A stretch of 64,000 nucleotides of DNA, from positions 124,001 to 188,000 of the forward strand of contig CANLVP010000003.1 in the NCBI GenBank assembly GCA_947494675.1. Direction: 5' to 3'. The position numbers were made by a program, and so were the translations under genes. Each line of letters begins with the position of its first letter. Positions within the stretch are counted from its first letter, which is position 1. The stretch comes from an uncultured Paracoccaceae bacterium. Lineage in GTDB: Bacteria; Pseudomonadota; Alphaproteobacteria; Rhodobacterales; Rhodobacteraceae. The notes under the pieces are model-generated. The model had not been told where the DNA came from and made no database searches. It saw only the letters and a program-made list of their open reading frames with translations. Shown here piece after piece: positions 26,172-51,476 of this stretch.

Positions 26172-26854
26172 GCGGCCTCTAACCAGCGGGCCAGGGCCGC
26201 TGTGGTTTCTGTGGGTTGCTCCAAAGTTGGCAAATGCCCTGCGTTTTCAATGATATGCAGGGTGCTGCCCGCGATCAGCTCGTGCATCAGCACGTGACGG
26301 TGCACCGGGCAAAGCGCGTCATCGCGACCGCAGAGAATCAGGGCCGGGACATTGCAATTGCGCAGCGTATCCTGCTGGTCGGGGCGGGTTTGCAACGCGC
26401 GGGATTGGCGGATGAAAACCGCAGGTCCAAGATCGCCTGCCATCTCCATGCAGAGGTCCAAGATCGCAGCGCGATTGGGACCATCGGTGAGGTAGTTCGG
26501 CTTCATCTCATCGCGCATCACGGGGATCAGATCGCCCCGTTGCACCTTGGCGATTTGCGGTTCGCGGGCCGCAGCGATTTTGGGGTGTTCGGCCTTTGGG
26601 TTGGTGTCCAAGAGCGCGATTTTGACAACGCGGTCAGGGGCTTGGCGCAAAACCTCCATCGCGACGATGCCGCCCATAGACAGGCCTGCAAGTGCAAAGC
26701 GTGCCGGGGCCTGTGCGATGATATCCGCCGCCAATGCCGCCACTGTGTCGTGGTCTGTGATGGGCAACACTCGCGCGCCCGGCAAAGCCTTGATTTGCGG
26801 AGCAAAAAGCCGGGCATCACACATCATGCCGGGGAGCAGGATCAGCGGCGTCAT
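26168..26854 (-). CDS. Alpha/beta hydrolase
   Basis: 228-residue alpha/beta-hydrolase fold esterase or lactonase. The nucleophile elbow is GLSMGG (Ser59), the acid is probably the Asp in LCGRDDALCP, and the His is in NAGHLPTLEQP. It overlaps the RraA-like gene and the MetE-core gene by 4 bp each, so it is translationally coupled in the same operon. Substrate unknown. Confidence 0.9.
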   Translation of the reverse strand: MTPLILLPGMMCDARLFAPQIKALPGARVLPITDHDTVAALAADIIAQAPARFALAGLSMGGIVAMEVLRQAPDRVVKIALLDTNPKAEHPKIAAAREPQIAKVQRGDLIPVMRDEMKPNYLTDGPNRAAILDLCMEMAGDLGPAVFIRQSRALQTRPDQQDTLRNCNVPALILCGRDDALCPVHRHVLMHELIAGSTLHIIENAGHLPTLEQPTETTAALARWLEAA

Positions 26855-27978
26855 GCGCTTGCCAACTTGGCCCCTTCGGCGAGCGTACCAAGCTTGGCAT
26901 AGGCGATTTCAGGGTCCACCGCGCCGAAGCCTGCAAAGGTGCCAAAGCCGCAGTCTGAGCCCGCAATCACGCGGTCCGACCCAACAATTTCCTTAAATCT
27001 TTCAATACGTTGCGCGACAAGTTCCGGATGTTCGACAAAGTTTGTCGTTGTATCCACGACCCCAGGCACCAGCACCTTTTCGTCCGGAATGTCCGCCTTG
27101 CGATCCCGGAAAACCGACCATTCGTGGCCGTGGCGAGGGTTGGAGGTTTCGAACAGCACATAGCGGGACTTGGTGCTCATCAGCGTGTCGAACATCTTGG
27201 ACATGGGGATGTCGCAGACGTGCGGACCTTCGTAGTTGCCCCAGCAGATATGCACACGGACTTTTTCGGCGGGAACATCCGAAAGGGCGTGATTGAGCGC
27301 CTCAACATGGCTTGCCGCGATCTTGAGGAATTCATCATCGGACAAATCGTTAAACAACATATGACGCGACAGTGCGAGGTCGGGGCAGTCGAGTTGCAGA
27401 TCAAGGCCAGAGGCGACGATGGTCTCATACTCCGCCTTCATCGCGTCGGCCAATGCGGCCAGATAAGCCTCGCGCGTTTTGTAGTAATCGTTCTGCAAAA
27501 ACAAAGAGATAACGCCGGGCGAGGCCGCATTCATAAAGCCCCGGTCAACCCCGTGATTGGCCATGGCGGCCTTGAGATTTGCGATATCCTTTTCCAGCTC
27601 GCCCTGCCCCTTGGACTTCACCTCGCCCACGCACATTGGTCTGGCGTATTGCGGGGTGCCGCCATCATCGGCCAAGCGTTTGAGAAAGCTGGGAAATTCC
27701 TTGAGGTCGGCTGGCGCGTTGCGTGGGCTGTCGCCATCAAATCCGGTGTAGCGATCCTTGACGTAGGTGGCATAGCTGATCTTGGAAGTTTCCCCGTCCG
27801 AGACGATATCAACACCCGCAAGCTTTTGTTTTCGCACGGTTTCATCGACCGCTGCGGTCATCGCAGCATCAAATGCGCTGACCTCATAGGGTTTGCCGTG
27901 CTCGCGGGCAAAGATGTAATCCACGACCTCTTGCGTTCGGGGCAGTGATCCGACGTGGCTGGTCAAAATCTTGGGCAT
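26851..27978 (-). CDS. MetE C-terminal-domain-like (cobalamin-independent methionine synthase II family) protein
   Basis: 375 residues matching only the catalytic barrel of MetE, without its N-terminal half. The zinc ligands look intact: H243 and C245 in VHICWGNYEGPH, Glu277 in FETSNPRHGHE, and C343 in AGSDCGFGTF. Proteins of this size include alkyl-transfer enzymes such as epoxyalkane:CoM transferase; a thiol-alkylating or demethylating reaction is possible. First gene of a coupled operon with hydrolase, RraA-like aldolase and FAD oxidase, so it probably acts in catabolism rather than methionine synthesis (inference). Confidence 0.88.
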   Translation of the reverse strand: MPKILTSHVGSLPRTQEVVDYIFAREHGKPYEVSAFDAAMTAAVDETVRKQKLAGVDIVSDGETSKISYATYVKDRYTGFDGDSPRNAPADLKEFPSFLKRLADDGGTPQYARPMCVGEVKSKGQGELEKDIANLKAAMANHGVDRGFMNAASPGVISLFLQNDYYKTREAYLAALADAMKAEYETIVASGLDLQLDCPDLALSRHMLFNDLSDDEFLKIAASHVEALNHALSDVPAEKVRVHICWGNYEGPHVCDIPMSKMFDTLMSTKSRYVLFETSNPRHGHEWSVFRDRKADIPDEKVLVPGVVDTTTNFVEHPELVAQRIERFKEIVGSDRVIAGSDCGFGTFAGFGAVDPEIAYAKLGTLAEGAKLASA

Positions 27979-28066: not shown

Positions 28067-29041
28067 TTAACCCCGCCATGTGGCCCCCGCCGGATCGCCG
28101 GTGGCGACGACATGGTAAAGCGACGCCTCACCGGTCATTGAGGGCACGGCGTTGTGCATCAGCCCTTCTGGAACCGACATCGTGTCGCCGGGGGCGAGCG
28201 TGGCGGCACCGCCGTCCCAGGTCACGCGCCAATGGCCGCGCATGGGCATCAGGACGGAAGGGTATGGGTGGCTGTGCATCGCATCACTGGCAGAGCCGCG
28301 GGTGATCAGGCTGACCTCAAACCCCGGCTTGTCGCGCAGCACGCCGTTCTCACCGATCACCGTCACTGGGTCGCGGTCAGCAAGGGCCGTCAGGTCAAGG
28401 TAGCGGGCCACGTGATTGGGCAGCACGTCGCGGGTTGTCAGTTCGGGCCGTTTGGCAAGCTCGGCCTCGGTCATCACTGGCATCGGCTTCACGCCGTTGG
28501 TCAACGCCTCGCCCTTTTTGGTGTCATAAAGCTTGCCGTTATCGCCAAGGATCAGGCCGTGGTCGGCGGCATCCTCGATCACCTGGGGTGCCCACATGAC
28601 GCCGCCACCTGCATCGTCGCCGCCCAGCACCGCCATGATCATCCCATAGTCGGTGCCGATATTTTCAAACCCGCGAAAGATGCCCGTGGGGATGTTGAAG
28701 ATGTCGCCCTCTTCCAGCGTCACTTCGCCTGCCGTGCCCCAGCGGCCCCAGAAGAACCGCCAGCGACCTTTGAGGACAAAGAACACCTCTGCCGTGTGAT
28801 GGTCATGCAGCGAATTCCGGCAATGTGGCGGCTGACCGGCGGCCCCAATGTTGAAGCCATGCGGGATGCCGATATGGACGTGTTGATCAGGGCTTTCGCT
28901 GACGCCGCCGCCGATGATGGTGAAGTTTTCCTTTTGGTCAGACCCCGGCGTATGGGCGTCGATAAAGGCGGTCTTGCAAGGCACCAGATCGCCATAACGG
29001 ACGATGCGGGCTTCCATGTCGGCGGGGGTCATATCGGTCAT
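28067..29041 (-). CDS. Two-domain cupin protein
   Basis: 324-residue bicupin. The first cupin carries a metal site in HDHHTAEVFFVLKG (H79, H81, H82, E85) and a PGD-like DIFNIPTGIFRGFEN turn. The second has MHSHPYPSVLMPMRGHWRV and a PGDTMSVPEGLMHN turn. Such proteins are dioxygenases, isomerases or sugar-binding enzymes; gentisate-dioxygenase-like annotation is possible but unproven. Last gene of the nine-gene LacI-regulated operon, overlapping the SnoaL-like gene upstream by 4 bp. Confidence 0.85.
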   Translation of the reverse strand: MTDMTPADMEARIVRYGDLVPCKTAFIDAHTPGSDQKENFTIIGGGVSESPDQHVHIGIPHGFNIGAAGQPPHCRNSLHDHHTAEVFFVLKGRWRFFWGRWGTAGEVTLEEGDIFNIPTGIFRGFENIGTDYGMIMAVLGGDDAGGGVMWAPQVIEDAADHGLILGDNGKLYDTKKGEALTNGVKPMPVMTEAELAKRPELTTRDVLPNHVARYLDLTALADRDPVTVIGENGVLRDKPGFEVSLITRGSASDAMHSHPYPSVLMPMRGHWRVTWDGGAATLAPGDTMSVPEGLMHNAVPSMTGEASLYHVVATGDPAGATWRG

Positions 29042-30018
29042 CCTTGGTGCAGCAGGATCTGTTTCCAGATCGCGATTTCATCATAAAGGGCGAATTCGCG
29101 GCGCAACCCGATGCCGTCGGGGCCATAGGGGCCAAATTCGGCGTGGCACATGCCCATGACGTGAACCCGCGCGCCGGTGGGGCGGCCAAATGTGCCCCAG
29201 CCATCGTGGGTGCCATCAAGCGACCAGCGGATCGCCGCGCGGGGTGAGAGCATGTCGGCATCCATGCCGATCTGGTGGTGGATTTTGAACGTCGCTGAGG
29301 GGAAGGATGACCGCAAGCCGACCCAGAATTTCGTGCATTCCTCAGCGCTGGTCAGCATTTGACCGCCCGCATATTCGCCGATCACAGCCCGGTCATAGCT
29401 TTCGCGGATGTGGTTGAAATCGTGGTTCATGATCCGGGTCAGCGTGTCGGCGTAGCGCTGCCCCCATGCGTTTTCGTTGCCGGTGCCCTTGTAGTCCCCT
29501 GCGATGTCGTTCTCGGGCAGGAAGGGCATCGCGGCCTTCTCTGGCCCGCCTTCATCGGCGATGAGTTGCGCGGTGAATTCACGTGGGTCCTTGCCGATCT
29601 GACGGACGATGCCGCCGTAGTCGCGGATCAGCCATTCGTCAAAAATCGTGTCCTCTTTGGCGGCGCAATCGGCGATGACGCGGATGTTCCACGTCTTGCC
29701 CGTCGCCGGGCCAAAGGCCCCGTCTTGGGCATGGGTCGCCACGGTGTTGAGGCGGTGCGAGGACAGCAAACCGGTTTCATGCTCTGACCAGATCACGTCC
29801 TCGCCAAACAACTGCCGGTCGGGAAATTCGTTGATCGTGGCCATGGTCGCGGCGATGACCGCCTTGTTGCCGCGCTGGATGCCCATGGGCGAGCGGACGG
29901 GGATGTCTTCGCTGTAGTAATGGTTAAGCGTGCCGACGCCGCGGTCTTCCCAAATCTCTTTGGTGATGCCGATGATGTAGTCGGGGAAATCCTTCCACCG
30001 GTTTGAAAAGCCCTTCAT
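29038..30018 (-). CDS. SnoaL-like (NTF2 fold) protein, two-domain, subgroup D
   Basis: 326 residues that read as two NTF2/SnoaL-like halves: YIIGITKEIWEDRGVGTLNHYY at about 14-35 and a second beginning YADTLTRIMNHDFNHIRESY near 190. SnoaL relatives are aldol-type cyclases, isomerases or hydratases that need no cofactor. It lacks the PGPxTxDGL and W-x-GP-x-GIG motifs of the other long SnoaL genes of this locus and is a separate subgroup. A good AAGGA site precedes the start inside lacI, which it overlaps by 4 bp. Confidence 0.8.
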   Translation of the reverse strand: MKGFSNRWKDFPDYIIGITKEIWEDRGVGTLNHYYSEDIPVRSPMGIQRGNKAVIAATMATINEFPDRQLFGEDVIWSEHETGLLSSHRLNTVATHAQDGAFGPATGKTWNIRVIADCAAKEDTIFDEWLIRDYGGIVRQIGKDPREFTAQLIADEGGPEKAAMPFLPENDIAGDYKGTGNENAWGQRYADTLTRIMNHDFNHIRESYDRAVIGEYAGGQMLTSAEECTKFWVGLRSSFPSATFKIHHQIGMDADMLSPRAAIRWSLDGTHDGWGTFGRPTGARVHVMGMCHAEFGPYGPDGIGLRREFALYDEIAIWKQILLHQG

Positions 30019-31037
30019 GGGGTGGTCCTTTGATTAGCCGGGGCAGAGCCGCGGGGGATTAGCGGGCCGTCGATTTCCACCCGGCGGGCGGGGGCATCCG
30101 GGTCGGTGATATTGGCAATGAGCAGGTCCACGGTGGCCTGCACCATCTGATTGACGGGCTGGCGCACGGTGGTCAGGTCATAGGCGGCCCATGCGGCGGT
30201 GGGCACGTCGTCATAACCGACAATGGCCACATCATTTGGGACATCAAGGCCCAGCTCGCCGCGCAGCGTGTCGATTACGGCAAAGGCCATGTGGTCGTTG
30301 CCCACAAAGATCGCATCGGGCGGCGTGTCCGATTGCATCAGCGTCACAGCGGCGGCCGCCGCGGTATCGCGGTCGTATTTGCCGTCGATGATCTGTGGTG
30401 CGGGTTGGCCCAGTTCGGCCAGCCGCTCGGTAAAGCCGCGCTGCCGGTCGCGGCCCGTCGATGACCCCTGCCAGCCCGAGATATGGGCGATGGTCTTGTG
30501 CCCTGCGGCCACCAGAAAGTCCGCGATCTTGCGCCCGCCCGTGACATTGGCAGAGGTCACGGCAGAGAGGTCCACGCCAGCCTGGCCACGGTTGAACATC
30601 ACCACGGGAATGCCCGCCGCGGCGCATTTCGCGGTCAGATCGCCGGACATGGAGACGGAGGCAGTGATGATCCCGTCGACCTGATAATCCATCAGTTCCT
30701 CGACGATCTGATCAACCCGGTCCTGCGCGTTTGAAGAGGTGAAAACAAGGATATGGTAGCCCTGCGCCTGCAGCGCGTTCGACAGCCGTTCCAGCGCCAG
30801 CGGGTAGAACATGTTGTCCAGATAGGCGACGATCAACCCGATGATGCGGCTTTTGCCGGTGATCATCGCGCTGGCCATGCGATTGGGGCGATAGCCCAGT
30901 TCTTGTGCCGCGCGTTTGACCTTTTCCACCGTTTTGGCACTGGCCGAGGCACCGGGCGTGAACACGCGGCTCACGGCGGATTGGCTGACCCCTGCCCGCT
31001 TGGCGACTTCGAGTGATGTGACCTTGTCCTGTGCCAT
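30015..31037 (-). CDS. LacI family transcriptional regulator
   Basis: 340-residue repressor. The N-terminal HTH is TSLEVAKRAGVSQSAVSRVF (7-26), then the hinge LGYRPNRMASAMITGKS, then a periplasmic-binding-type ligand domain (IIGLIVAYLDNMFYPLAL onward). It is encoded as the seventh gene of the operon it presumably controls. Two LacI-type palindromes lie in the divergent promoter region 6 kb upstream. The inducer is expected to be the imported substrate or an intermediate. Coupled by 1-bp and 4-bp overlaps to its neighbours. Confidence 0.93.
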   Translation of the reverse strand: MAQDKVTSLEVAKRAGVSQSAVSRVFTPGASASAKTVEKVKRAAQELGYRPNRMASAMITGKSRIIGLIVAYLDNMFYPLALERLSNALQAQGYHILVFTSSNAQDRVDQIVEELMDYQVDGIITASVSMSGDLTAKCAAAGIPVVMFNRGQAGVDLSAVTSANVTGGRKIADFLVAAGHKTIAHISGWQGSSTGRDRQRGFTERLAELGQPAPQIIDGKYDRDTAAAAAVTLMQSDTPPDAIFVGNDHMAFAVIDTLRGELGLDVPNDVAIVGYDDVPTAAWAAYDLTTVRQPVNQMVQATVDLLIANITDPDAPARRVEIDGPLIPRGSAPANQRTTP

Positions 31038-31801
31038 CAGCCTGCGGTCCAGCCTCCGTCGATCAGAAGGTGGGTGCCGGTCATCATCGCGCCGGCGTCC
31101 GAGGCGAGGTAGACGACCGGCCCCATGATGTCGGTGACTTCGCCGACGCGGTCGAGCTTAATCTTGTCCATGATCCACGCCACCCGGTCGGGATTGTTGA
31201 ATGTCACTTCGGTCAGCGGCGTGCGGATGAAGGTGGGGCAGATGGTGTTCACGCGGATGCCCGCCTTGCCCCATTCGATGGCCATAGCTTTGGTAAACCC
31301 TTCGACCGCGTGTTTGGTGCCGCAATAGACCGCGCGATCGATGCCGCCGACAAAGGCCATCTGGCTGGTGATATTAATCAGGCTGCCGGGTTTGCCTGCG
31401 TCCAGCAGCCCCTTGGCGACGGCGGTGGTCAGGAAATAAGCCCCTTTGAAGTTGAGGTCGGAGACGGCAGCGAAATCCGCCTCTGTCGTGTCTACCGCGG
31501 GGCTGTGGATCGCGAGGCCTGCGGAGTTCAGCAAGATGTCAAACGGCCCTGCCTGCTCCACGGCGGCCTGCGTCGCGGCGATGTCAGCAACGTCCAGCGT
31601 CATGGCCGTCGCATCAAACCCGGCAGCGGTGAGTGCCGCGACTGCTGCACCCAGTTTGTCCGCACTGCGGGCCGCCAGCGTCACGGCGGCCCCGGCCTGC
31701 GCCAGCGCCACAGCGCAGCCCAACCCGATGCCAGACGAGGCCCCGGCGACCAGCGCGCGTTTGCCATCAAGGCGGAAGGACGGGGTGTTTGGCAGGTCCA
31801 T
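31037..31801 (-). CDS. SDR family NAD(P)-dependent oxidoreductase
   Basis: 254-residue classical SDR. The cofactor motif is GASSGIGLG, NSAG marks strand beta-4, the catalytic Ser is in ITSQMAF, and Y-x-x-x-K is YCGTK. The C-terminal IDGGWTAG is typical of polyol/sugar/3-oxoacyl dehydrogenases. Overlaps of 1 bp with both neighbours place it in the LacI-regulated operon. Likely oxidises a hydroxyl of the imported compound (inference). Confidence 0.92.
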   Translation of the reverse strand: MDLPNTPSFRLDGKRALVAGASSGIGLGCAVALAQAGAAVTLAARSADKLGAAVAALTAAGFDATAMTLDVADIAATQAAVEQAGPFDILLNSAGLAIHSPAVDTTEADFAAVSDLNFKGAYFLTTAVAKGLLDAGKPGSLINITSQMAFVGGIDRAVYCGTKHAVEGFTKAMAIEWGKAGIRVNTICPTFIRTPLTEVTFNNPDRVAWIMDKIKLDRVGEVTDIMGPVVYLASDAGAMMTGTHLLIDGGWTAG

Positions 31802-32844
31802 CAGATATACTCCTGTGCAATTCTCGACGGCCCCGAGGGCCTTGCCACAAGAGATGCACGCATCCGCGCCAAAACGTCCACACCCAACTGGCGGTAAAGG
31901 TCCAGAAGGTCGATCATCACCCAGTTTTCGCGGATTTTGCCGCCTGCGATGCGCCAGAAATCAAGACTGCATAGCGTCACCTCTTTTCCCGCAGGGGCGA
32001 TGCCAAGCCAGCCGTCATCCGTCAGGGTCTGCCGCATATTGGGCCAGCCGGTGACGGCGACATAAGCGCCATCGGCAAAGAAGTGATGGCCCACCGTATC
32101 GCTATATTTGCCACGGTCGGGCATGGCGGCGAGGAATGGCCTTTGGTGCCAATGGCGAAACCCCGGAATGCCGCGCGCAGTGCCGATCCCGGCGGGGCCA
32201 TACCACATCATGCGGGCGTCCCAAAAGCGGGGCATCTCCATCGCCTCTGGCGGCTCTTCGGGGTGGCGGCCCATGGCGGCGAGCATTGCAAGGATGTGAA
32301 CCTTGGACGCGGCACTCGCGGCTGCATCGTGGGGGCCGGTGCGCAACCCGTCCTGGGTTGCCGGTCCGGGCACAATGACCTCACGCCCCATTGAGGGTGC
32401 CATAGGCCAGACCCCCGCCTGCATCATGAGTTCGGGGATGTCCCAGATCGCCTGCACCTCGACCACCTGCCCGTCTTGGACGCGATAAAATTCGTGGAAC
32501 CGGATATGGGCCAGATGGCCGGTGGGCGGAATATCAAGAAAGGGATGCAGGAAAGTGCCGACGTAGTGACCGCCGCAGCCGACCCAGTCGGCCCCGTCGT
32601 CGTCCGCGCCTGCCATGACGATCCAGTCGCGGCGTTCAAGATCGGGGAAGGCCGCAGCCAGCGGTTCATAAGCCGACAGAAGGCCCTGTGGCCCCGACAG
32701 ATCGCCAAAGGGATGGCACAGATGGATCACCGCATTGGGGGCCATGACAGCGCCCAAGGCCTGCGCCACCCGGTCCTTATCCCAATCGCGCTGCGCGGCC
32801 CGCAGCGGGTGAAGCAGAGTTCTATGGGCGGCGTGATCGCTCAC
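31801..32844 (-). CDS. SnoaL-like (NTF2 fold) protein, two-domain, subgroup A
   Basis: 347 residues forming two SnoaL/NTF2-like halves joined by a linker carrying PGPATQDGL (159-167); the second half begins with [10 protein letters not shown] (212-221). Domain 1 has CHPFGDLSG (43-51). The same marks occur in the proteins encoded at 34188-35204 and 40294-41304, so the three are paralogues. The GTG start at 32844 overlaps the HisD-like stop (GTGA). Probable isomerase, hydratase or cyclase; no catalytic residue can be assigned with certainty. Confidence 0.82.
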
Positions 32845-34172
32845 TCAGCAGCGTCCTTGTAGGGGGCACCTTCGCCGTAGGGGACATTGATGCCGCCGTA
32901 ACGGCGGACGCGGACGTTGCATTGTTCGGCGTGCCCCACGAAGCCTTCGAGCATGCAGAGCCGACTGCCATAGGCACCGATCTCGGCGGCGGCCTCATCC
33001 GTTGTGATCTTTTGATAGCTGTGAGTTTTCAGATACTTACCAACCCATAGACCACCAGTATAACGCCCGGCCTTTTTGGTCGGCAGGGTGTGGTTGGTGC
33101 CGATGACTTTGTCGCCGTTTGACACATTGGTGCGCGCGCCAAGGAATAGCGCGCCATAGCAAGTCATATGCTCAAGGAACCAATCGTCGCGGTCGGTCAT
33201 GACCTGCACATGCTCTGACGCGATGTCATCGGCGACCTGCAACATCTCTTCGTAGGTGTCGCAAATGATGATCTCACCGTAGTCTTCCCAACTGGTGCGG
33301 GCGGTGTCGGCCGTGGGAAGGATTTGCAGCAGCCGGTCGATTTCCTGCGCGGTGCCATGGGCAAGCTTTTCGGAATTCGTCAGCAGAACCGCAGGCGAGT
33401 TGTAGCCGTGTTCGGCCTGCCCCAGCAGGTCGGTTGCGCATAGCTCTGCGTCGGCCCCAACCTCATCTGCGATCACCATGGTTTCGGTCGGGCCTGCAAA
33501 AAGATCGATGCCCACACGGCCAAACAGCTGGCGCTTGGCCTCGGCCACGAACGCATTGCCGGGGCCGACGAGCATGTGGACAGGCTCAATCGTTTCGGTG
33601 CCAATCGCCATGGCCCCGACCGCCTGAATGCCGCCAAGGACGTAGATTTCATGTGCGCCGCCCAAGTGCATCGCTGCAATCACCGCCGGGTTTGGTTCGC
33701 CCTTGAAGGGCGGCGTGCAGGCGATGATGCGCGGCACTTTCGCGACAGTGGCGGTGGCGACGGACATATGGGCGCTGGCCACCATGGGGAATTTCCCGCC
33801 CGGCACGTAGCAGCCCACGGATTGCACGGGGATGTTTTTGTGGCCCAGAATGACGCCTGGCATCGGTTCAACCTCGATGTCCAACATGCTGTCCCTTTGC
33901 GCTTGGGCGAAATTGCGCACCTGTTCCTGTGCGAATTTGATGTCGGCCATGTCGCGGTCGCTGACCTTGGCGATGATGGATTGGATTTCAGCGTCGGACA
34001 AACGATAGCTCGTCCGGTCATAGCCATCGAATTTCACCGCCAGATCGTGGACGGCTGCATCGCCGCGCGCCTCAATATCGGCGAGCGTCGCCTCGACCAC
34101 GGCGCGGGTCTTGGCGTCGTCTTCGGCGCGGGCCTCGGCAGAGCGGGCGGTTTTGAGGTGTCGGATAGCCAT
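32841..34172 (-). CDS. Histidinol dehydrogenase-family alcohol dehydrogenase (HpsN-like)
   Basis: 443-residue HisD homologue. HisD-type enzymes perform two NAD-linked oxidations, alcohol to aldehyde to acid, at a zinc site. Family marks are [32 protein letters not shown] and [17 protein letters not shown]. No other histidine gene is nearby and it sits in a catabolic operon, so it is more likely a paralogue like sulfopropanediol dehydrogenase HpsN, converting a primary alcohol to a carboxylate. The usual hps partners are absent, so the substrate is open. AAGGA precedes its ATG. Confidence 0.9.
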
Positions 34173-34187
34173 CGCGGCGTCCTTTCG

Positions 34188-35204
34188 TCAGGTTATACGG
34201 GGGCCGGGGGCGACGCTATGCCGCCCAGGAAAGAGATCGACGCCCATCTGCAAAAGGACGTCGGGAATATCGACCATGACCCAGTTTTCGATCAACAGAT
34301 CTTCGGTGCGCCGGTACCAGTCACTCACCCGCAAGAGCAGTGTCTCGCCTTTGCTGGACTGACCAAGGAAGTCGTCCTTGCGCACGGCCATCAAGGAAGG
34401 CCACCCGCCAAGGGCGGCGTAGTCGCCGTCACCAAATCGCGCGAAATGCTTGGTGACGCCGTTATTCGAAGACCCGCCGCCCCAGAACGAAAATGTGCTT
34501 TCAAATGGCACCTGAAAGGCTGCGAAGTCATCGATGCCCACAAAGCTGCCAAAGGCCGCAGGGCCGTACCACATCATGTTGTCGTGCCAATAGGGGCGCC
34601 ATGCCTCATCCTCTGTGGCGAGGCCCGCCAGCATATCCGTCACGACGGCATAGGTCTTGTCGCTGCGTGCGGGGTCATTTTCGGACAATTGCAGCCCGTC
34701 CTGCGTGGCGGGGCCGGGAATAAACCCGGTATAGCCTTTCTGGGTCGCAGGGCTGGGGTAGCGGTCTGGCCACTGGTCCGTCGCGATCATCAATTGTGGC
34801 AGATCAAGGTAGACATAGGTTTCCACCACTTTGCCGTTCTCGAAGCGGTGAAATTCGCCAAAGCGCAGGTATTCCAGACGGTTACTGGGTGCGAGGCCCA
34901 TCAGCGGATCGCCATAATAGCCAACGTAGTTGCCGTGGGTTGCGACCCAGTCGCCCCCCTCGAACGTGCCTCCAATCAAGATGTCATCACGCCGGTGCAG
35001 CCCGCGAAAGGCCTCTGCGAGCGATGAGATGAACTGGTCCAGATAGGCGTCCACGCCCGTCAGATCGTTCCACGGATGAACGACGTGAAACACAGCGTCC
35101 TGTGCAATAAGGTCAAGCGTCGCCTGTCGCCAAGCGCCCTGATCGGGGGTGGCAAAGGCCGTGACCCATTGGTGGATTGCGGTTTTCCGGTCAAGATGGG
35201 TCAT
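34188..35204 (-). CDS. SnoaL-like (NTF2 fold) protein, two-domain, subgroup B
   Basis: 338 residues; paralogue of the products of 31801-32844 and 40294-41304. Domain 1 has HVVHPWNDLTG (40-50), the linker PGPATQDGL (163-171), and domain 2 MMWYGPAAFG (210-219). ATG 35204 overlaps the upstream gene's stop (ATGA), so a much longer frame reaching 35444 is rejected. It lies 15 bp before the HisD-like gene. Function unknown; possible isomerase or hydratase. Confidence 0.82.
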   Translation of the reverse strand: MTHLDRKTAIHQWVTAFATPDQGAWRQATLDLIAQDAVFHVVHPWNDLTGVDAYLDQFISSLAEAFRGLHRRDDILIGGTFEGGDWVATHGNYVGYYGDPLMGLAPSNRLEYLRFGEFHRFENGKVVETYVYLDLPQLMIATDQWPDRYPSPATQKGYTGFIPGPATQDGLQLSENDPARSDKTYAVVTDMLAGLATEDEAWRPYWHDNMMWYGPAAFGSFVGIDDFAAFQVPFESTFSFWGGGSSNNGVTKHFARFGDGDYAALGGWPSLMAVRKDDFLGQSSKGETLLLRVSDWYRRTEDLLIENWVMVDIPDVLLQMGVDLFPGRHSVAPGPRIT

Positions 35205-35725
35205 GGCGTCGGTGGCTCCGCTTCGCCGCGGTCGTATTTTTCCCAGCCCTCGCCGCCAAAGACGTCGACGCCAAGCTGGGCGAGCACATGGGGGAAATCG
35301 ACCATCACATAGTTGTCGGTGATGCGGCCGTCTTCGACCTTCCAGAAGTCCATGTAGCGGATTTCGATCCGTTTGCCGGAGGCAGGCACGCCCATGAAGT
35401 CGCCGCCGTGGGTCGCCTCTTGCCGGCCAAATGCGGCGGCCCATTCACCCATGTAAAGCCGCGCCTCATCCACGCAGACCTTGTCGTGGAAGGCGGCCTG
35501 AAATGGTTTTTGCCAATTGGATTGGAATTCCTGCAGGCCATTTTTGGTGCCACAACCGGTGTTGCCCATCCAGCGAAAGGTTTCGGCGAAAAACTCGCCA
35601 ATGTCGCCGATGCGGTGGTCGTTCAGGCCGTCAACCATGCCTTCGATCACGGCACGGGTGGCCTCTGTGTTGGACATGTCGGTGTCGCGGGTCAGGACCG
35701 CTTGTTCAGGACGGGACCCCTTCAT
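35201..35725 (-). CDS. SnoaL-like (NTF2 fold) protein, single domain
   Basis: 174-residue single SnoaL/polyketide-cyclase-like domain: an N-terminal helix VIEGMVDGLNDHRIGDIGEFF, then the cone-shaped barrel with GGDFMGVPASGKRIEIRYMDFWKVEDGRI, very typical of ester-cyclase/SnoaL annotations. Second gene of the leftward operon, 53 bp after the ABC ATPase stop and overlapping the next SnoaL gene by 4 bp. The start at 35725 has AAAGGG upstream; an in-frame ATG at 35677 is possible. Confidence 0.85.
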   Translation of the reverse strand: MKGSRPEQAVLTRDTDMSNTEATRAVIEGMVDGLNDHRIGDIGEFFAETFRWMGNTGCGTKNGLQEFQSNWQKPFQAAFHDKVCVDEARLYMGEWAAAFGRQEATHGGDFMGVPASGKRIEIRYMDFWKVEDGRITDNYVMVDFPHVLAQLGVDVFGGEGWEKYDRGEAEPPTP

Positions 35726-35778
35726 CCGGTGGCCCTTTCGCCTGCGAACAGGTCATATGTGGCGACAGGGGCCATGGG

Positions 35779-36822
35779 TCAAAGACGCTCCCCACTGGCG
35801 TGGTCAAAGAGGTGACAGATGTCGGCGGGGATATTGACGCTGACCGGATCGCCGATGTCGACGCGGTAGTCCTTGCCGGATTTGACCGACAGGATCGTGC
35901 CGCCCGCGCGCATGGTGACCATGGTCGCCTCGCCCAGCAATTCAAGCGAGTAAACGTTTGAATTTGCGTTGCTTTCGCCCGGTGCCACGCTGGCATCCTC
36001 GGCCCGGAAGCCAAGGGTGATCGGGCCGCTGTGGGTGCTGTCCAACCCGGTGATCTGCACCTTGTCGGCCGTGAATGTGCCGTTTTCCAACGTGCCATCG
36101 ATCAGGTTCATCGCAGGCGATCCGATGAATCCCGCCACAAAGGTATTGGCGGGATTGTCGTAAATATCCGTCGGGCTGCCGACCTGCTGCACCTTGCCCT
36201 TGTTCATCACCACGACGCGATCCGCGAGGGTCATCGCCTCAATCTGGTCGTGGGTCACATAGATCGTGGTGGTCTTAAGCTCGTGGCTGAGGTTCTTGAT
36301 TTGCGCACGGGTTGAGACGCGGAGTTTAGCGTCAAGGTTCGACAGCGGTTCATCCATCAAGAACACATTGGGTTCGCGCACCACAGCACGGGCCAGCGCG
36401 ACGCGCTGGCGCTGGCCGCCCGACAGTTCCGCCGGTTTGCGGTGTAGGAAATCATCAAGCTCAACCATCGCGCTGGCGCGTTTAACCAGCGCATCGTGGT
36501 CCCCCGCCACTTTGCGCACCTTCAGCGGAAAGCGGATGTTTTCGTAGACGTTCATGTTGGGGTAAAGCGCGTAGCTTTGAAACACCATCGCCACGTCGCG
36601 GTCCTTGGGATCAAGGTCATTGATCCGCTTGCCATCGACCAGAATATCGCCGCCGCTGGCATCTTCGAGGCCCGCGATCATCCGCATGGTCGTCGTCTTG
36701 CCACAGCCCGATGGGCCCAGCAGCACCAGAAATTCTTGATCCGCAATGGTCAGGTTGAAATCATGGACGCCAATAAAGCTGCCCCAGCGTTTCGACACAT
36801 TGCGCAGCTCGATTTGTGCCAT
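35779..36822 (-). CDS. ABC transporter ATP-binding protein (CUT1 sugar type, UgpC/MsmK-like)
   Basis: 347-residue importer ATPase. Walker A GPSGCGKTT 36-44, signature LSGGQ 133-137, Walker B VFLMDEP 153-159, then the TOBE/OB regulatory domain of MalK-type ATPases (from about residue 235). ATG 36822 (MAQIELRNVS) is the family start. First gene of the leftward operon and divergent from its binding protein and permeases. A LacI-type operator begins 15 bp upstream of the start codon. Confidence 0.95.
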   Translation of the reverse strand: MAQIELRNVSKRWGSFIGVHDFNLTIADQEFLVLLGPSGCGKTTTMRMIAGLEDASGGDILVDGKRINDLDPKDRDVAMVFQSYALYPNMNVYENIRFPLKVRKVAGDHDALVKRASAMVELDDFLHRKPAELSGGQRQRVALARAVVREPNVFLMDEPLSNLDAKLRVSTRAQIKNLSHELKTTTIYVTHDQIEAMTLADRVVVMNKGKVQQVGSPTDIYDNPANTFVAGFIGSPAMNLIDGTLENGTFTADKVQITGLDSTHSGPITLGFRAEDASVAPGESNANSNVYSLELLGEATMVTMRAGGTILSVKSGKDYRVDIGDPVSVNIPADICHLFDHASGERL

Positions 36823-36836
36823 CACGGCCCCCAAAC

Positions 36837-36852
36837 TTGCATACGTTTGCAA
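36837..36852. promoter_or_regulatory. LacI-type operator O1
   Basis: TTGCATACGTTTGCAA, a 16-bp near-palindrome with a central CG (7 of 8 positions symmetric), as expected for a LacI/GalR-family site. It lies 15-30 bp upstream of the ABC ATPase start. Read on the other strand it matches O2 at 15 of 16 bases. Confidence 0.8.
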
Positions 36853-36899
36853 ATCCTGCCGCGAGTCGCTGATTGGATCAAGCCCTAAAGTAATATGAT

Positions 36900-36929
36900 G
36901 AAAAATTCCCGCCGAAGGCCGAATTTTTC
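36900..36929. repeat. AT-rich hairpin between the divergent promoters
   Basis: GAAAAATTC (36900-36908) and GAATTTTTC (36921-36929) are perfect inverted repeats, with an inner GCC-GAA-GGC. The plus strand ends in a T-run, so it can act as a terminator-like stem. It sits between the two LacI-type operators. Confidence 0.5.
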
Positions 36930-36958
36930 TTGCGCGCAGGGCACCTGAGGCGGTTAAC

Positions 36959-36974
36959 TTGCAAGCGTATGCAA
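36959..36974. promoter_or_regulatory. LacI-type operator O2
   Basis: TTGCAAGCGTATGCAA with a central CG; 15 of 16 bases equal O1 read on the opposite strand. It lies about 105 bp before the binding-protein start. Its centre is about 122 bp from that of O1, which would allow repressor looping. Confidence 0.8.
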
Positions 36975-37079
36975 ATGGCATGGCGATTCGCCGTTGTCAT
37001 GTCGTATGTCTTGCGGCCGCGCGGTCGCGCCGAATGAACCCGCACCAAAGCGGGCATGACAGAAACCGGGAGTTTTGAA

Positions 37080-38327
37080 ATGAACATGATGAAAACCGCC
37101 CTGCTGGGCACGGCCATGGCCGTACTAAGCGGCACAAGCGCGCTGGCTGCGGGTCACGGCTGTGACGTCACTGATGGCCGGATCAACATTATCGGGAACG
37201 AGTTTCCTGCGATCCAATCCGTAGCTGCCGCAGCGCTTGCTTGTGCCAATGGCATTGAAGCGGAAAGCAACCTGACCGCAGATCACCAGACGCTGAACGT
37301 CGCTGGCATGACCGGCAACCCGGCGGAATACACCAGCGCGATCATCGCGAACTCTTCCATCGTGGCGCTGATCAACGAAGACGTCATCCGCCCACTGGAT
37401 GATCTTGTCGCTGCCTATGGCCAGGACATCCCTGCCCGCCAGTTGATCACCATCGATGGTCAGGTCATGGCCGTGGCTTTTATGGCGAACGCGCAGCACC
37501 TTGTATATCGCAAGGACGTGCTTGAGCAGATCGGCATGGACGTGCCCACATCCTACGAAGAGGTGCTGGCAGCGGCTGAAAAGATCCGCGCCGAGGGCAT
37601 CATGGAAAACCCCGTGGGTGGTGCCTATGCCGCTGGCTGGAACCTCGCCGAGGAATTCGTGAACATGTATCTGGGCACCGGTGGCGCATTCTTTGAGCCC
37701 GGCACAGCCAATGTCAGCATCAACAACGCCCAAGGCGTTGAAGCGCTTGAGATGATGAAGGCGCTGACCGCATATATGAACCCCGACTATCTGACCCACG
37801 ACAGCAACGCGACAAGCGCCGAGTGGGAAGCAGGCAACGTGGCTCTGATGAACATGTGGGGCAGCCGGACCGGCGTTCTGATGGACGAAGAAGGTGCCGC
37901 GATGGAGGTTTATTCCAACACGGTTGCCGGTGGTCCATTGACCGTTGGTGACAGCGGCGTAGCTGCTTCTACCCTGTGGTGGGACGGCTGGACCGTGGCC
38001 AAGAACATCAGCGACGCAGAAGCCGAAGCGACCTTTCAGGCGCTGGCACATGCCACATCTCCAGCACTGCTGAACGATGAGACGATGTCTCAGGCGGTGT
38101 GGCTGATGGACGGCTTCCAAGCGCAGCCAGTGAACGAAGGCGTCTTGGCCACCGTGGCCGCGGGTGCGAACCCCTATCCAATGCTGCCATTCATGGGCCT
38201 GTTGCACAGCGCGCTGGGTGACAACCTTGCCGATTACCTGCAGGGCAATGAAAGCGCCGAACAAGCGCTGGCAGACGTTGAAGCGGCCTATACCGCTGCT
38301 GCCAAAGAGCAGGGTTACCTGCAATAA
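37080..38327 (+). CDS. Extracellular solute-binding protein, CUT1 family
   Basis: 415-residue periplasmic binding protein of a carbohydrate-type ABC importer. The signal peptide MNMMKTALLGTAMAVLSG...SALA is cleaved before AGHGCDVT. Family-1 binding fold marks are RKDVLEQIGMDVPTSYEEVLAAAEKIRAEG and WEAGNVALMNMWGSRT. ATG 37080 is chosen for the GGGAG at 37068-37072 and the signal peptide; the frame upstream to 37056 is not needed. First gene of the rightward arm of the regulon. Confidence 0.94.
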   Translation: MNMMKTALLGTAMAVLSGTSALAAGHGCDVTDGRINIIGNEFPAIQSVAAAALACANGIEAESNLTADHQTLNVAGMTGNPAEYTSAIIANSSIVALINEDVIRPLDDLVAAYGQDIPARQLITIDGQVMAVAFMANAQHLVYRKDVLEQIGMDVPTSYEEVLAAAEKIRAEGIMENPVGGAYAAGWNLAEEFVNMYLGTGGAFFEPGTANVSINNAQGVEALEMMKALTAYMNPDYLTHDSNATSAEWEAGNVALMNMWGSRTGVLMDEEGAAMEVYSNTVAGGPLTVGDSGVAASTLWWDGWTVAKNISDAEAEATFQALAHATSPALLNDETMSQAVWLMDGFQAQPVNEGVLATVAAGANPYPMLPFMGLLHSALGDNLADYLQGNESAEQALADVEAAYTAAAKEQGYLQ

Positions 38328-38381
38328 TCGCGATACGAGAGGGGCGATCCCGCCCCTCTCAATCCACCTTGGGGCATTGTC

Positions 38382-39407
38382 ATGAAGCACAGCACGTTCT
38401 TTTGGTTCGTTTTGCCATCAGCGGTCTTGATGCTGCTTTTCATCGCATTGCCCATCGTCTCGGTTGTCACGCAATCGATGTATGCCGCCCACGAACAAGT
38501 GGTCGTGACGGTTGAAAACTGCGGGCCCTTCGGCTGCACCGAAACCACCGCAGTTGATCAGGAGGCGACGCAGGCGCTGAAAGAAGCAGAGCCGCTGGGG
38601 CGCTATGTCGGCACCGGCATTTATACGGACCGCAACCATCTGGCCCTGAACGAAGTTACAGCGGCCTGGTTTAATGCGGATGGTCTGCCCGACTTTGGCA
38701 GCAGCCTGATGAACCTGCCGTTTTACCGGGCGCTGGCCTTTACGCTGACCTATACGTTTATCGTGACACCGCTGACGATCATCGTGGGCTTTTTCATCGC
38801 TCTGGCCGTCAATACGGTCGCCGGTTGGCTCAAGGGGCCGACGATCTTTCTGTCGCTCTTACCGATGGTGGTGACGCCGATTGTGGGTGGTTTGATCCTG
38901 TTCTGGATGGTCGATGCCCGCGGCGTGCTGGGCGGTGCGCTGCAATGGCTGGCGAATGATCCGACGCTTTCGGTCAAGGCCAGCACGGGGCTCACGTGGA
39001 TCATGTTGATGATCTATGGCGTCTGGCACTCTGCCCCGTTCGCCTTTGTCGTCTATTACGCGGGCCTGCAAACGGTCAATCAGGACACGATTGAAGCGGC
39101 ACTGATTGACGGGGCCAGCCGGTGGGAGCGGATCCGCTACGTCGTCATCCCGCACCTTTTCCCGCTGACCACCTTTGTGGCGCTCATTCAGCTAATGGAC
39201 AACTTCCGCGTCTTTGAGCCGCTGGTCAGTTTTCAGGCACAGGCCCATGCGCAATCGCTGTCCTATTTCATCTTCAACGATCTGGGCGGCGAAACACGGC
39301 TGTTGTCGTCTGCCGCCGCGACATCGGTCTTGACGATTATCGGCGTCGCCATCCTGCTGTCGCCCGTGCTGATCCGCACCTATCGCGACTTTACCCCGAG
39401 GACATGA
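38382..39407 (+). CDS. Sugar-type ABC transporter permease 1 (UgpA/MalF-like)
   Basis: 341-residue permease. TM1 (about 6-30) is followed by an unusually long extracytoplasmic insert (31-113) bearing Cys47 and Cys52 in ENCGPFGCTE, which could form a disulfide. The remaining membrane helices and the EAA loop (EAALIDGASRWERIRYVVIPH) are standard. The insert is reminiscent of the MalF P2 loop that contacts the binding protein, though shorter. A 54-bp gap separates it from the binding-protein gene. Confidence 0.92.
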   Translation: MKHSTFFWFVLPSAVLMLLFIALPIVSVVTQSMYAAHEQVVVTVENCGPFGCTETTAVDQEATQALKEAEPLGRYVGTGIYTDRNHLALNEVTAAWFNADGLPDFGSSLMNLPFYRALAFTLTYTFIVTPLTIIVGFFIALAVNTVAGWLKGPTIFLSLLPMVVTPIVGGLILFWMVDARGVLGGALQWLANDPTLSVKASTGLTWIMLMIYGVWHSAPFAFVVYYAGLQTVNQDTIEAALIDGASRWERIRYVVIPHLFPLTTFVALIQLMDNFRVFEPLVSFQAQAHAQSLSYFIFNDLGGETRLLSSAAATSVLTIIGVAILLSPVLIRTYRDFTPRT

Positions 39408-39408
39408 G

Positions 39409-40290
39409 ATGAGTAGCAAAGCCACATCACGTCCCTTGCCCGTCATGGTGATCGCCACGGTGTTTCTGCTGGTGTGGCTGGTCATTGCTGCCTTCCCGTT
39501 CCTGTGGACCACCTGGGGCAGCTTCAAGGTTGAAGGCGACTTCTTTTCCAAGGCGGATTGGCTCAACGCCATTCTGGGCCCCTTGACCACGGCAGAGACA
39601 GGCGGGTCCCTCACGGGGGCGGGTTATTATGGGGCGTGGATTCAGGAAGAGTTCTGGCGCGCGGCCATGAACACGGCGATCGTCTGCGTCTGCGTCGTCT
39701 CGATCTCGCTGACCTGCGGCACGCTTGGCGGCTACGCGCTGGCGCGATCAGGCTTTCGCTATGCGTTCTGGTTCTTGTTCTTTGCGCTGATCTTCCGCGC
39801 GATGCCGCCGATTACGCTGGTGTCCGGCTATCTGCTGCCGTTCTTTGAATGGAATCTTTGGGGGCATCTGTCGACGACGATCATTGTCCTTGTGGCGATC
39901 AACCAGCCCTTTACGCTGTGGATGCTGCATTCGTTCTTCAAGAACATCCCTGCTGATCTGGATGAAAGTGCGATGGTCGATGGCTGCACGCGTTTTCAGG
40001 CGTTCCGGCACGTGATTATTCCGGTGATGTGGCCGGGTGTGATCACCACCGGCCTGTTCAGTTTCCTGCTGGCCTACAACGATTTTGCGGTGACGACGCT
40101 GCTGCTGACCAAGGAAAATCAGACCATGGTGCCCAAGATCGTCAGCTTCCTTGGCACCACCCAGACCAAGGGCAATGTGATGTTTGCGGTGGCTGCTGCT
40201 GTGTCGATTACCGCACCGCTTTTTGTGATGATCATGTTCTTCCAGCGCCAGATCGTCAGCGGCCTGACCGCGGGCGCAGTCAAGGGCTAG
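39409..40290 (+). CDS. Sugar-type ABC transporter permease 2 (UgpE/MalG-like)
   Basis: 293-residue permease with about six helices and the EAA loop DESAMVDGCTRFQAFRHVIIP. A C-terminal QRQIVSGLTAGAVKG tail matches MalG-type partners that insert into the ATPase. It begins one base after the permease 1 stop and is 3 bp before the next gene. Its ATPase is encoded on the opposite strand at 35779-36822. Confidence 0.94.
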   Translation: MSSKATSRPLPVMVIATVFLLVWLVIAAFPFLWTTWGSFKVEGDFFSKADWLNAILGPLTTAETGGSLTGAGYYGAWIQEEFWRAAMNTAIVCVCVVSISLTCGTLGGYALARSGFRYAFWFLFFALIFRAMPPITLVSGYLLPFFEWNLWGHLSTTIIVLVAINQPFTLWMLHSFFKNIPADLDESAMVDGCTRFQAFRHVIIPVMWPGVITTGLFSFLLAYNDFAVTTLLLTKENQTMVPKIVSFLGTTQTKGNVMFAVAAAVSITAPLFVMIMFFQRQIVSGLTAGAVKG

Positions 40291-40293
40291 ACC

Positions 40294-41304
40294 ATGGATT
40301 TCCAAGACGCAAAGGCCGTCGTGCTGGCGCACTATGAGGCGCTCGCCGGGGCGACGCCGGACACGGTGGCCGAGGTTTTGGCCGCGCGGACCGCGCCGGA
40401 TTGGCATTGGCGGGGGATGCATCCGTTTTATGAACAACACGGGGCTGCGGCTGTGGCGGAGAGCTTTTGGGCGCCGTTTCTGACCGCCATGTCACGGGTG
40501 CAAAGGCGGCCCGACATCTTTTTCGCCGGCACCAATGTGGCGGGCGGACGCCCAGGCACATGGGTGGTGTCGATGGGTCATCTGATGGGGCTCTTTGATG
40601 CGCCGTTTCTGGGCATCCCGCCAACCGGCAAGATCACCATGCTGCGCTATGCAGAGTTCAACTGCGTCGCGGATGGCAAGATCGTGGAAACCGCGCTCTT
40701 TTGCGATCTGGTGCATTTCATGCATCAGGCGGGGCTGTCGCCTCTGCCGCCGCAAACGGGCCAGCATCTGATCCAGCCGGGGCCGCTGACCCATGATGGG
40801 CTGCTCTATGATCCGACCCCCGGCGGGGAAGAGACGCTGGCGCTTATCGACCGGATGATCGGGGACATCGCCGCCAATTCCAACACTGGGCCGGGGGCCA
40901 CACCGCGTGAGACCCCGCAAGAGGAACTGGCGCGCTGCTGGCATGACGACATGCTGTGGTGGGGGCCGGACGGGATTGGCGCGACCTATACGATTGACCG
41001 CTACATCACCCAGCATCAAAGGCCGTTTCGTAAGCACCTTACCAACCGCGTTTTCCACGGCCATCAGGCCAAGCTGGCCGAGGGCAACTATGGCGGGTTC
41101 TTTGGCTGGGCGAACCTGACGGTGACGCCGCTTGGAGGCTACATGGGACTGCCCAAGGGGGAACCTGCGGATATGCGCGTGGTCGATATCTACCGGCGCG
41201 ATGGGGACAAGCTGGCAGAGAACTGGATCTTCATCGACATCCTGCATTTTCTGGACATGCAGGGGCTGAATGTGCTGAACCGCTTGAAAGACATGCACAT
41301 TTAG
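40294..41304 (+). CDS. SnoaL-like (NTF2 fold) protein, two-domain, subgroup C
   Basis: 336 residues, third paralogue of the products of 31801-32844 and 34188-35204. Domain 1 has GMHPFYEQHG (41-50), the linker PGPLTHDGL (162-170) and domain 2 MLWWGPDGIG (220-229). It lies 3 bp after permease 2 and so is co-expressed with the importer. Function unknown; SnoaL-type isomerase, hydratase or cyclase is the best guess. Confidence 0.83.
   Translation: MDFQDAKAVVLAHYEALAGATPDTVAEVLAARTAPDWHWRGMHPFYEQHGAAAVAESFWAPFLTAMSRVQRRPDIFFAGTNVAGGRPGTWVVSMGHLMGLFDAPFLGIPPTGKITMLRYAEFNCVADGKIVETALFCDLVHFMHQAGLSPLPPQTGQHLIQPGPLTHDGLLYDPTPGGEETLALIDRMIGDIAANSNTGPGATPRETPQEELARCWHDDMLWWGPDGIGATYTIDRYITQHQRPFRKHLTNRVFHGHQAKLAEGNYGGFFGWANLTVTPLGGYMGLPKGEPADMRVVDIYRRDGDKLAENWIFIDILHFLDMQGLNVLNRLKDMHI

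Positions 41305-50058: not shown

Positions 50059-51476
<1,418 letters not shown>

Follow-up and report, generated by a model that had tools for sequence, protein, structure and literature searches.

Which compound is imported and degraded by a LacI-linked gene cluster in which one sugar-type ABC importer is surrounded by five SnoaL-fold proteins? The cluster lies in a 64,000-nucleotide stretch, the window of this study, from an uncultured Paracoccaceae bacterium (assembly GCA_947494675.1, contig CANLVP010000003.1, positions 124,001 to 188,000). The reading that we prefer, with a probability of about 0.5, is a LacI-controlled regulon that would import a cyclic enol compound bearing a hydroxymethyl group, open its ring oxidatively and convert it to pyruvate and a C4 acid. 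It builds on the gene set and its conservation, on an operator motif, on a subgroup of HisD-type enzymes and on module swaps between versions of the cluster.

The genes named in an earlier note on this DNA were all found in place, and domain scans agreed with their families (Table 1). The CUT1 importer set is complete, with a UgpC/MalK-type ATPase, a solute-binding protein and two permeases, and the SnoaL-fold proteins number five as described, one single (S) and four double (A to D). The leftward operon starts at 36822 and runs through the ATPase, SnoaL S, SnoaL B, the HisD-like enzyme, SnoaL A, a short-chain dehydrogenase/reductase (SDR), the LacI-family regulator, SnoaL D and a bicupin; the rightward arm (37056-41304) encodes the binding protein, permease 1, permease 2 and SnoaL C. 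Seven of the eight junctions in the nine-gene run are tight, with overlaps of 1-4 bp or the 15 bp between HisD and SnoaL B, and the eighth, between the single SnoaL and the ATPase, measures 53 bp. The earlier note had the nine genes and their order right and placed the end of the operon at 28067, which did not hold: the operon was extended by three genes to 25479 because genes for a MetE-like protein, an alpha/beta hydrolase and an RraA-family aldolase follow closely (88 bp after the bicupin, then overlaps of 4 bp each) and accompany the cluster in many of 20 relatives' stretches. A GlcD-like oxidase may be the last gene. Since the family match of the ATPase begins only at residue 54 of the longest reading frame, its start is probably near 36822 rather than at 36981.

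The grouping of SnoaL genes is not due to chance, because the 3.9 Mb genome has eight matches to PF07366 at E ≤ 0.001, of which seven lie inside the cluster (two of these seven below the curated cut-off) and because the gene order recurs in relatives. PF07366 alone was significant over just one stretch each in SnoaL B and SnoaL C, and their second halves were visible in a half-domain alignment. No RNA family was found in the cluster at E 0.01.

To compare gene neighborhoods, a HisD search over 61 genomes gave orthologues (≥65%) in 21, the source genome included, and the 20 stretches around the others were compared with the window genes. A bicupin scan of GTDB genomes found at least 572 relatives, from which the best 80 stretches were taken. 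With the window and six plasmid records this made 107 stretches, some places being represented twice. Presence was counted in the 51 GTDB loci with full ±10 kb; these were picked by their bicupin, and the identity thresholds undercount. LacI and SnoaL D were present in all 51, as was the bicupin by construction, followed by HisD (49), SDR (46), MetE-like (44), the permeases (44 and 44), binding protein (42), SnoaL A (41), SnoaL S (35), RraA (34), ATPase (32), hydrolase (26), a methyltransferase (13), SnoaL C (8), a GMC oxidoreductase (7), an amidase (6) and SnoaL B (5). Each stretch holds two to four SnoaL proteins, with truncation at the edges. Over the 107 stretches the recurrent order, with gaps, is ATPase-SBP-permeases-[GMC]-SnoaL S-HisD-SnoaL A-SDR-LacI-SnoaL D-bicupin-[methyltransferase]-MetE-hydrolase-RraA, where SBP is the solute-binding protein. 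Sets are incomplete in four stretches with HisD and only one to three other cluster genes, some at low identity, and a fifth has few. This retained synteny does not support a chance cluster. Since the cupin occurs in 81 of 198 sampled family genomes and 24 of 398 phylum-sample genomes (16 of the 24 in the window's own family), the regulon probably consumes a common nutrient; a narrower model found it in 21 of 289 class genomes. In all five congeners a GMC oxidoreductase gene lies between the ATPase and SnoaL S, where the window has its 53 bp gap. In one congener no match to SnoaL A or B was found and SnoaL S is divergent (53%), which suggests that the SnoaL set turns over.

The divergent ATPase/binding-protein promoter contains two exact LacI-type palindromes. 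Shuffled sequences gave on average 0.43 matches at up to two mismatches, and two or more matches in 6 of 100 shuffles. Among complete ATPase or binding-protein upstream windows, 35 of 59 had a site with at most one mismatch, versus 1 of 1105 background windows. A stricter pattern gave 37 exact matches in 25 of 120 family genomes, versus 1 for the reversed control, and cluster genes stood beside the site in 21 of 23 relatives' stretches taken around strict matches. Exact sites also lie upstream of clusters with a major facilitator superfamily (MFS) transporter and HisD, SDR, hydrolase, HpcH and cupin genes in Pantoea (L232) and in four genomes of the same phylum but outside the window's class (L241-L244), and in a Novosphingobium cluster (L233). 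On a Salmonella plasmid, an exact site and a site with one mismatch lie between LacI and HisD; the two sites at this place on a Klebsiella plasmid have one and two mismatches. The motif is found in two proteobacterial classes. A second HisD gene next to an amidase is preceded by sites with one or two mismatches in four stretches, two-mismatch matches alone being weak, and none was found before the second HisD in two Paracoccus loci. A first scan, which allowed up to two mismatches anywhere in a locus, matched 79 of 107 stretches and gave 58 matches in shuffled sequence; it was too loose and was not used for counts. From these sequence patterns, the LacI-type repressor is predicted to bind paired TTGCATNCGNATGCAA-like operators and to control import and catabolism. 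The single LacI-controlled catabolic regulon around a CUT1 importer that the earlier note described is thus supported by conserved operators and synteny. Elsewhere in the source genome, exact operator-like palindromes at C2:1154706 and C3:792570 precede genes for a PDZ-domain protease and a permease of xanthine/uracil type, and are likely unrelated to the regulon.

By sequence, the solved structures nearest to the HisD-like enzyme are those of HpsN. In excerpts of PMC11382572, HpsN is set apart by the motif GRY[A/S]H, whose His binds the sulfonate together with Lys353, and the substrate-loop motif of HisD is given as G-S-A-P-L. The latter is not universal, since two HisD-type relatives (37-39%) read LANYP and QASYP, both with DY. 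In the alignment the window enzyme carries KFPM at 127-130, with Met130 in place of the sulfonate His of HpsN; the HpsN lysine is retained (DK), as are the residues for zinc binding and catalysis, namely Gln, His, Asp, His and Glu-His. It has neither GRY[A/S]H nor the HisD-type loop and DY, and by these motifs it belongs to a third HisD-type subgroup, the substrate of which would probably be anionic and not a sulfonate. KFPMV occurs at 104 motif sites of the compared loci, repeats of the same gene included, and distant members read KYPL or KYPM. The source genome has, in other places, two RYSH-type HpsN copies and one true HisD-type copy. A second pathway for 2,3-dihydroxypropane-1-sulfonate (DHPS) or another organosulfonate, with this enzyme acting as HpsN, would agree with the nearest structures and with the largely marine-type Rhodobacterales names of the relatives. 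The KFPMV motif in place of GRY[A/S]H speaks against it, and we rejected it on the missing sulfonate His and the two separate HpsN-type copies, leaving it next to no probability. Of these copies, which lie apart on contig C1, one is near an apparent tripartite ATP-independent periplasmic (TRAP) transporter, as judged by eye. A second HisD type (RYPL or RFPL) stands beside an amidase at the cluster end in six stretches, and on Novosphingobium and Blastomonas plasmids a KYPL-type HisD has genes of the VOC and fumarylacetoacetate hydrolase families as neighbors, a setting of aromatic type.

Versions of the cluster outside the close relatives show which genes are shared most widely. The Klebsiella plasmid carries LacI (43% to the window), HisD (69%), SDR (50%), an MFS transporter, a hydrolase (32%), an HpcH/HpaI aldolase and a bicupin (41% over the N-terminal 215 residues), and its 19 kb stretch gave no match to the SnoaL, MetE-like or CUT1 proteins. 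In a Pantoea cluster two SnoaL doubles and another HisD are added to this core. Novosphingobium EMRT-2 has a TonB receptor, an MFS transporter, HpcH, an amidase, two HisD and an ester cyclase, and two further genomes combine TonB receptors with HpcH. HpcH stands in place of RraA in several versions. The most widely shared core is HisD, SDR, bicupin, hydrolase and a pyruvate-type aldolase. That SnoaL steps are central to the pathway has less support: in the window's own kind of cluster SnoaL D is constant and each stretch has two to four SnoaL proteins, but the Klebsiella core shows none. The carbohydrate-like substrate of the earlier note is less certain, with MFS, TRAP or TonB transporters in other versions and the tail exchanged for tetronate enzymes in one of them.

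The same evidence bears on a non-phosphorylative sugar-acid pathway, in which SDR and GMC enzymes would oxidize a sugar, the hydrolase would open the lactone, SnoaL proteins would dehydrate, HisD would oxidize the terminal CH2OH, the aldolase would give pyruvate and an aldehyde acid, and the bicupin would be an isomerase. The CUT1 importer and LacI suit such a route, as do the resemblance of the SDR to KduD and of the Thioclava HpcH to HpaI and GarL (all below cut-offs) and the scanned cluster genes of the window, which include no kinase. It is at odds with the Klebsiella version, which has no SnoaL or MetE-like match and no annotated sugar-acid dehydratase, and with the TonB plus MFS or TRAP transporters of some versions, and we regard it as possible but unlikely.

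A second exchange concerns tetronate enzymes. In Thioclava, Vibrio, Salinivibrio and Ensifer a related cupin-hydrolase-HpcH set adjoins otnK and otnC, and otnI too except in Ensifer. HisD and OtnK were compared in 25 cupin stretches, a chosen, non-random set of 17 from the family and phylum samples (mainly of the long cupin type) and eight named records, several cut short: HisD was present in 10, OtnK in 7, neither in 8 and both in none. Outside this set, two stretches (L238, L239) have an annotated HisD and two (L229, L235) neither. Four of the seven OtnK proteins were tested and all passed the equivalog cut-off of 350 (533.8, 545.1, 569.1 and 456.2). Two of three tested OtnC proteins were above 250 (286.5 and 297.8; 240.8 below), and one of two OtnI proteins was above 325 (336.8; 279.2 below). 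OtnK was not found in the 51 full-length GTDB stretches, and none of the seven OtnK stretches had an exact operator match. Two congeners carry both the HisD and the Otn types at separate places; their second cluster is of the otnK type, with a separate importer and a regulator of GntR type. In the simplest reading, HisD/SDR would act on C4-yielding intermediates equivalent to those of the Otn enzymes.

The ring-opening step would fall to the bicupin. His79, His81, Glu85 and Arg123 are invariant in 12 of 12 diverse cupins, down to 29% identity, and the protein marks a distinct cupin family. Cupin dioxygenases usually bind their metal through HxH, Glu and a further His. The structural model matched quercetin, 3-hydroxyanthranilate and salicylate dioxygenases as well as oxalate decarboxylases and seed globulins, at template-modeling (TM) scores of about 0.4-0.5. 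Quercetinases come first among these matches, which together with the tetronate exchange brings up an ascorbate-like route: the bicupin would split the C2-C3 bond of an enediol lactone and the hydrolase would set free oxalate and threonate, the latter being used by HisD/SDR or the Otn enzymes, with HisD forming tartrate. Tetronate enzymes do occupy the place of HisD/SDR, and threonate would be a carboxylate analogue of the HpsN substrate, in keeping with the retained anion-binding lysine. Yet the route leaves the RraA/HpcH aldolase without a job though it is present in both versions, and does not call for SnoaL or MetE-like steps. In the stretches from Thioclava, Vibrio and Salinivibrio, moreover, otnI has no annotated threonate dehydrogenase next to it; we consider the route rather improbable. 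A kojic acid route was dropped since on paper it yields no tetronate.

Families PF07366 and PF12680 scored above cut-off for the SnoaL proteins. SnoaL D, the only one modeled, has a cone-shaped fold with a predicted local distance difference test (pLDDT) value of 95.3. Its first Foldseek matches were the tandem epoxide hydrolases Lsd19 and MonB, ranked by E-value and with TM scores of 0.3-0.4, and IdmH, a cyclase that reached TM 0.78 on the target. An Asp that may correspond to the catalytic Asp of the cyclases is aligned in eight of nine half-domains; the misaligned C-terminal half of SnoaL D was matched by eye. LdpA, a lignin-dimer lyase of SnoaL type, does not appear by name among the 50 fold matches listed for SnoaL D. 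The matches of SnoaL D to polyether epoxide hydrolases and of SnoaL S to nogalonic acid methyl ester cyclase and IdmH would suit a biosynthetic polyketide-type cluster with SnoaL proteins as cyclases. From context such biosynthesis is unlikely, indeed very improbable: the cluster genes, to which the scan was confined, include no polyketide synthase, one operator-bearing promoter serves both importer and operon, and a SnoaL-free core exists.

For the oxidative opening of a cyclic enol compound, the operators would be bound and the steps would be ordered and catalyzed as follows. The repressor and its paired operators would control import and catabolism of a compound that feeds the shared core. 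The bicupin would open a cyclic enol- or enediol-type ring oxidatively and the hydrolase would cleave the resulting ester or lactone. The HisD-like enzyme would convert a hydroxymethyl group to a carboxylate, with the SDR adjusting a neighboring hydroxyl, and RraA or HpcH/HpaI would split the product into pyruvate and a C4 acid. SnoaL-fold and MetE-like proteins, and in some strains the GMC oxidase and amidase, would act in additional reactions, probably ahead of the core, by which related compounds are led into it.

Several observations weigh against this scheme. All enzyme substrates are predictions, and the part assigned to the SDR is weak. In the bicupin the further His is replaced by Arg123 in all 12 cupins compared, its model is mediocre (pLDDT 71.9, residues 20-76 below 50), and the fold matches, with decarboxylases and storage proteins among them, would not fix the reaction. 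The Pantoea SnoaL doubles and the occurrence of SnoaL D in 51 of 51 GTDB stretches speak against peripheral SnoaL proteins. The swaps are not strict, as RraA and HpcH occur together in four stretches and eight of the 25 cupin stretches have neither HisD nor OtnK. Records of Sulfitobacter and Agrobacterium have HisD and SDR in the absence of this cupin, and a Rhizobium plasmid carries HisD by itself. By the strict count 24 of the 59 upstream windows have no site, some through misplaced gene starts; two of the 23 operator stretches have other genes instead of the cluster (a TAXI-TRAP transporter and another sugar importer); and the source genome has three further sites, one with a mismatch, away from cluster genes.

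A C7 skeleton with a hydroxymethyl carbinol is suggested by the combination of a pyruvate aldolase of RraA or HpcH type, a hydrolase, a putative dioxygenase and, depending on the version, either a tetronate product or an enzyme converting CH2OH to COOH. We tentatively, and with odds well against it, suggest the gadusol/mycosporine family of algal and fungal sunscreens, to which paper chemistry was fitted afterwards. On paper 4-deoxygadusol and gadusol fit every core step except the SDR. With 4-deoxygadusol, cleavage of the 2-methoxy-enolone ring by the bicupin would form 4-hydroxy-4-(hydroxymethyl)-2-oxoadipate as its methyl ester, from which the hydrolase would remove methanol, and HisD would oxidize CH2OH to give 4-carboxy-4-hydroxy-2-oxoadipate (CHA), a known CHA aldolase substrate, which RraA would convert to pyruvate and oxaloacetate. 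Gadusol, with one more hydroxyl, would by the same cleavage without HisD yield pyruvate and 3-oxo-tetronate, the OtnK substrate, and the HisD/Otn swap would thereby be explained. Removal of amino-acid substituents would fall to the SnoaL proteins and the amidase.

If the sunscreen assignment is true, the regulon would be a bacterial route for an abundant compound class. In current annotation its enzymes go by the names histidinol dehydrogenase, ester cyclase and cupin. The regulon is marked by the third HisD-type subgroup, the distinct cupin family and an operator motif that spans two proteobacterial classes. In agreement with the earlier note, which knew of no named pathway with this gene set, text searches turned up no publication naming it, as judged on titles and abstract openings and with subscription papers mostly outside their scope. 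The word 'histidinol' and the string TGCAT are absent from excerpts of the main text of PMC4052901 on LacI regulons.

Table 1. Features of the cluster and its flanks in window coordinates, with the basis of each assignment.
Feature	Position	Strand	Basis or remark
GlcD-like FAD oxidase	24016..25425	-	53 bp after RraA; protein cluster in 11/107 stretches; glcD below cut-off
RraA-family aldolase (4-hydroxy-2-oxo acid aldolase-like)	25479..26171	-	PF03737; ligK_PcmE far below cut-off; syntenic in relatives
Alpha/beta hydrolase (PcaD/BioH-like, below those cut-offs)	26168..26854	-	Family scan; syntenic
MetE-core-like protein (possible zinc alkyltransferase)	26851..27978	-	PF01717; in 44/51 GTDB stretches
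Bicupin, invariant HxH, E, R123	28067..29041	-	Domain scan and alignment
Tandem SnoaL protein D	29038..30018	-	PF07366/PF12680; AF2 pLDDT 95.3; 51/51 GTDB stretches
LacI-family regulator	30015..31037	-	PF00356/PF13377
SDR dehydrogenase	31037..31801	-	PF13561; best NCBIfam match kduD, below cut-off
Tandem SnoaL protein A	31801..32844	-	Domain scan
HisD/HpsN paralogue, motif KFPM	32841..34172	-	PF00815; nearest solved structures HpsN; motif
Tandem SnoaL protein B	34188..35204	-	Domain scan; shorter start taken to fit overlap with neighbor
Single-domain SnoaL protein S	35201..35725	-	Domain scan; matches to SnoaL cyclases
CUT1 (UgpC/MalK-type) ATPase	35779..36822	-	PRK11650 438.1 vs cut-off 432
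Operator 1 TTGCATACGTTTGCAA	36837..36852	.	Predicted LacI-type palindrome
Operator 2 TTGCAAGCGTATGCAA	36959..36974	.	Predicted LacI-type palindrome
Periplasmic solute-binding protein	37056..38327	+	SBP_bac_8; weak matches to sugar-binding proteins incl. SmoF
Permease 1	38382..39407	+	PF00528
Permease 2	39409..40290	+	PF00528
Tandem SnoaL protein C	40294..41304	+	Domain scan

Apart from the cluster, ARAGORN reported a 96-base tRNA-Asn(att) at 50788-50883 of the window; it is not found in Rfam at the gathering threshold and is probably false.

Among known systems, the SnoaL cyclases and polyether epoxide hydrolases (SnoaL, IdmH, Lsd19, MonB) share fold and Pfam families with the window proteins, whereas the context here, with importer and LacI, looks catabolic. 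DHPS catabolism by HpsN, HpsO and HpsP likewise combines a HisD-fold zinc dehydrogenase with an SDR, and the window enzyme has the anion-binding lysine as well as the catalytic and zinc residues in common with it; the window differs by Met or Leu for the sulfonate His and by LacI/CUT1 with SnoaL and cupin genes. With the end of the protocatechuate/gallate 4,5-cleavage pathway it shares an RraA-family aldolase, the counterpart of the LigK CHA aldolase, possibly acting after ring opening and hydrolysis, but the window protein scores 35.7 bits versus the LigK/PcmE equivalog cut-off of 304.5. The tetronate (OtnI/OtnK/OtnC) clusters have no exact operator, rely on CUT1 importers of another make-up or on TRAP transporters, and occur where the window uses HisD and SDR; what they share with it is a related bicupin, hydrolase and HpcH set, there beside otnK and otnC and mostly otnI.

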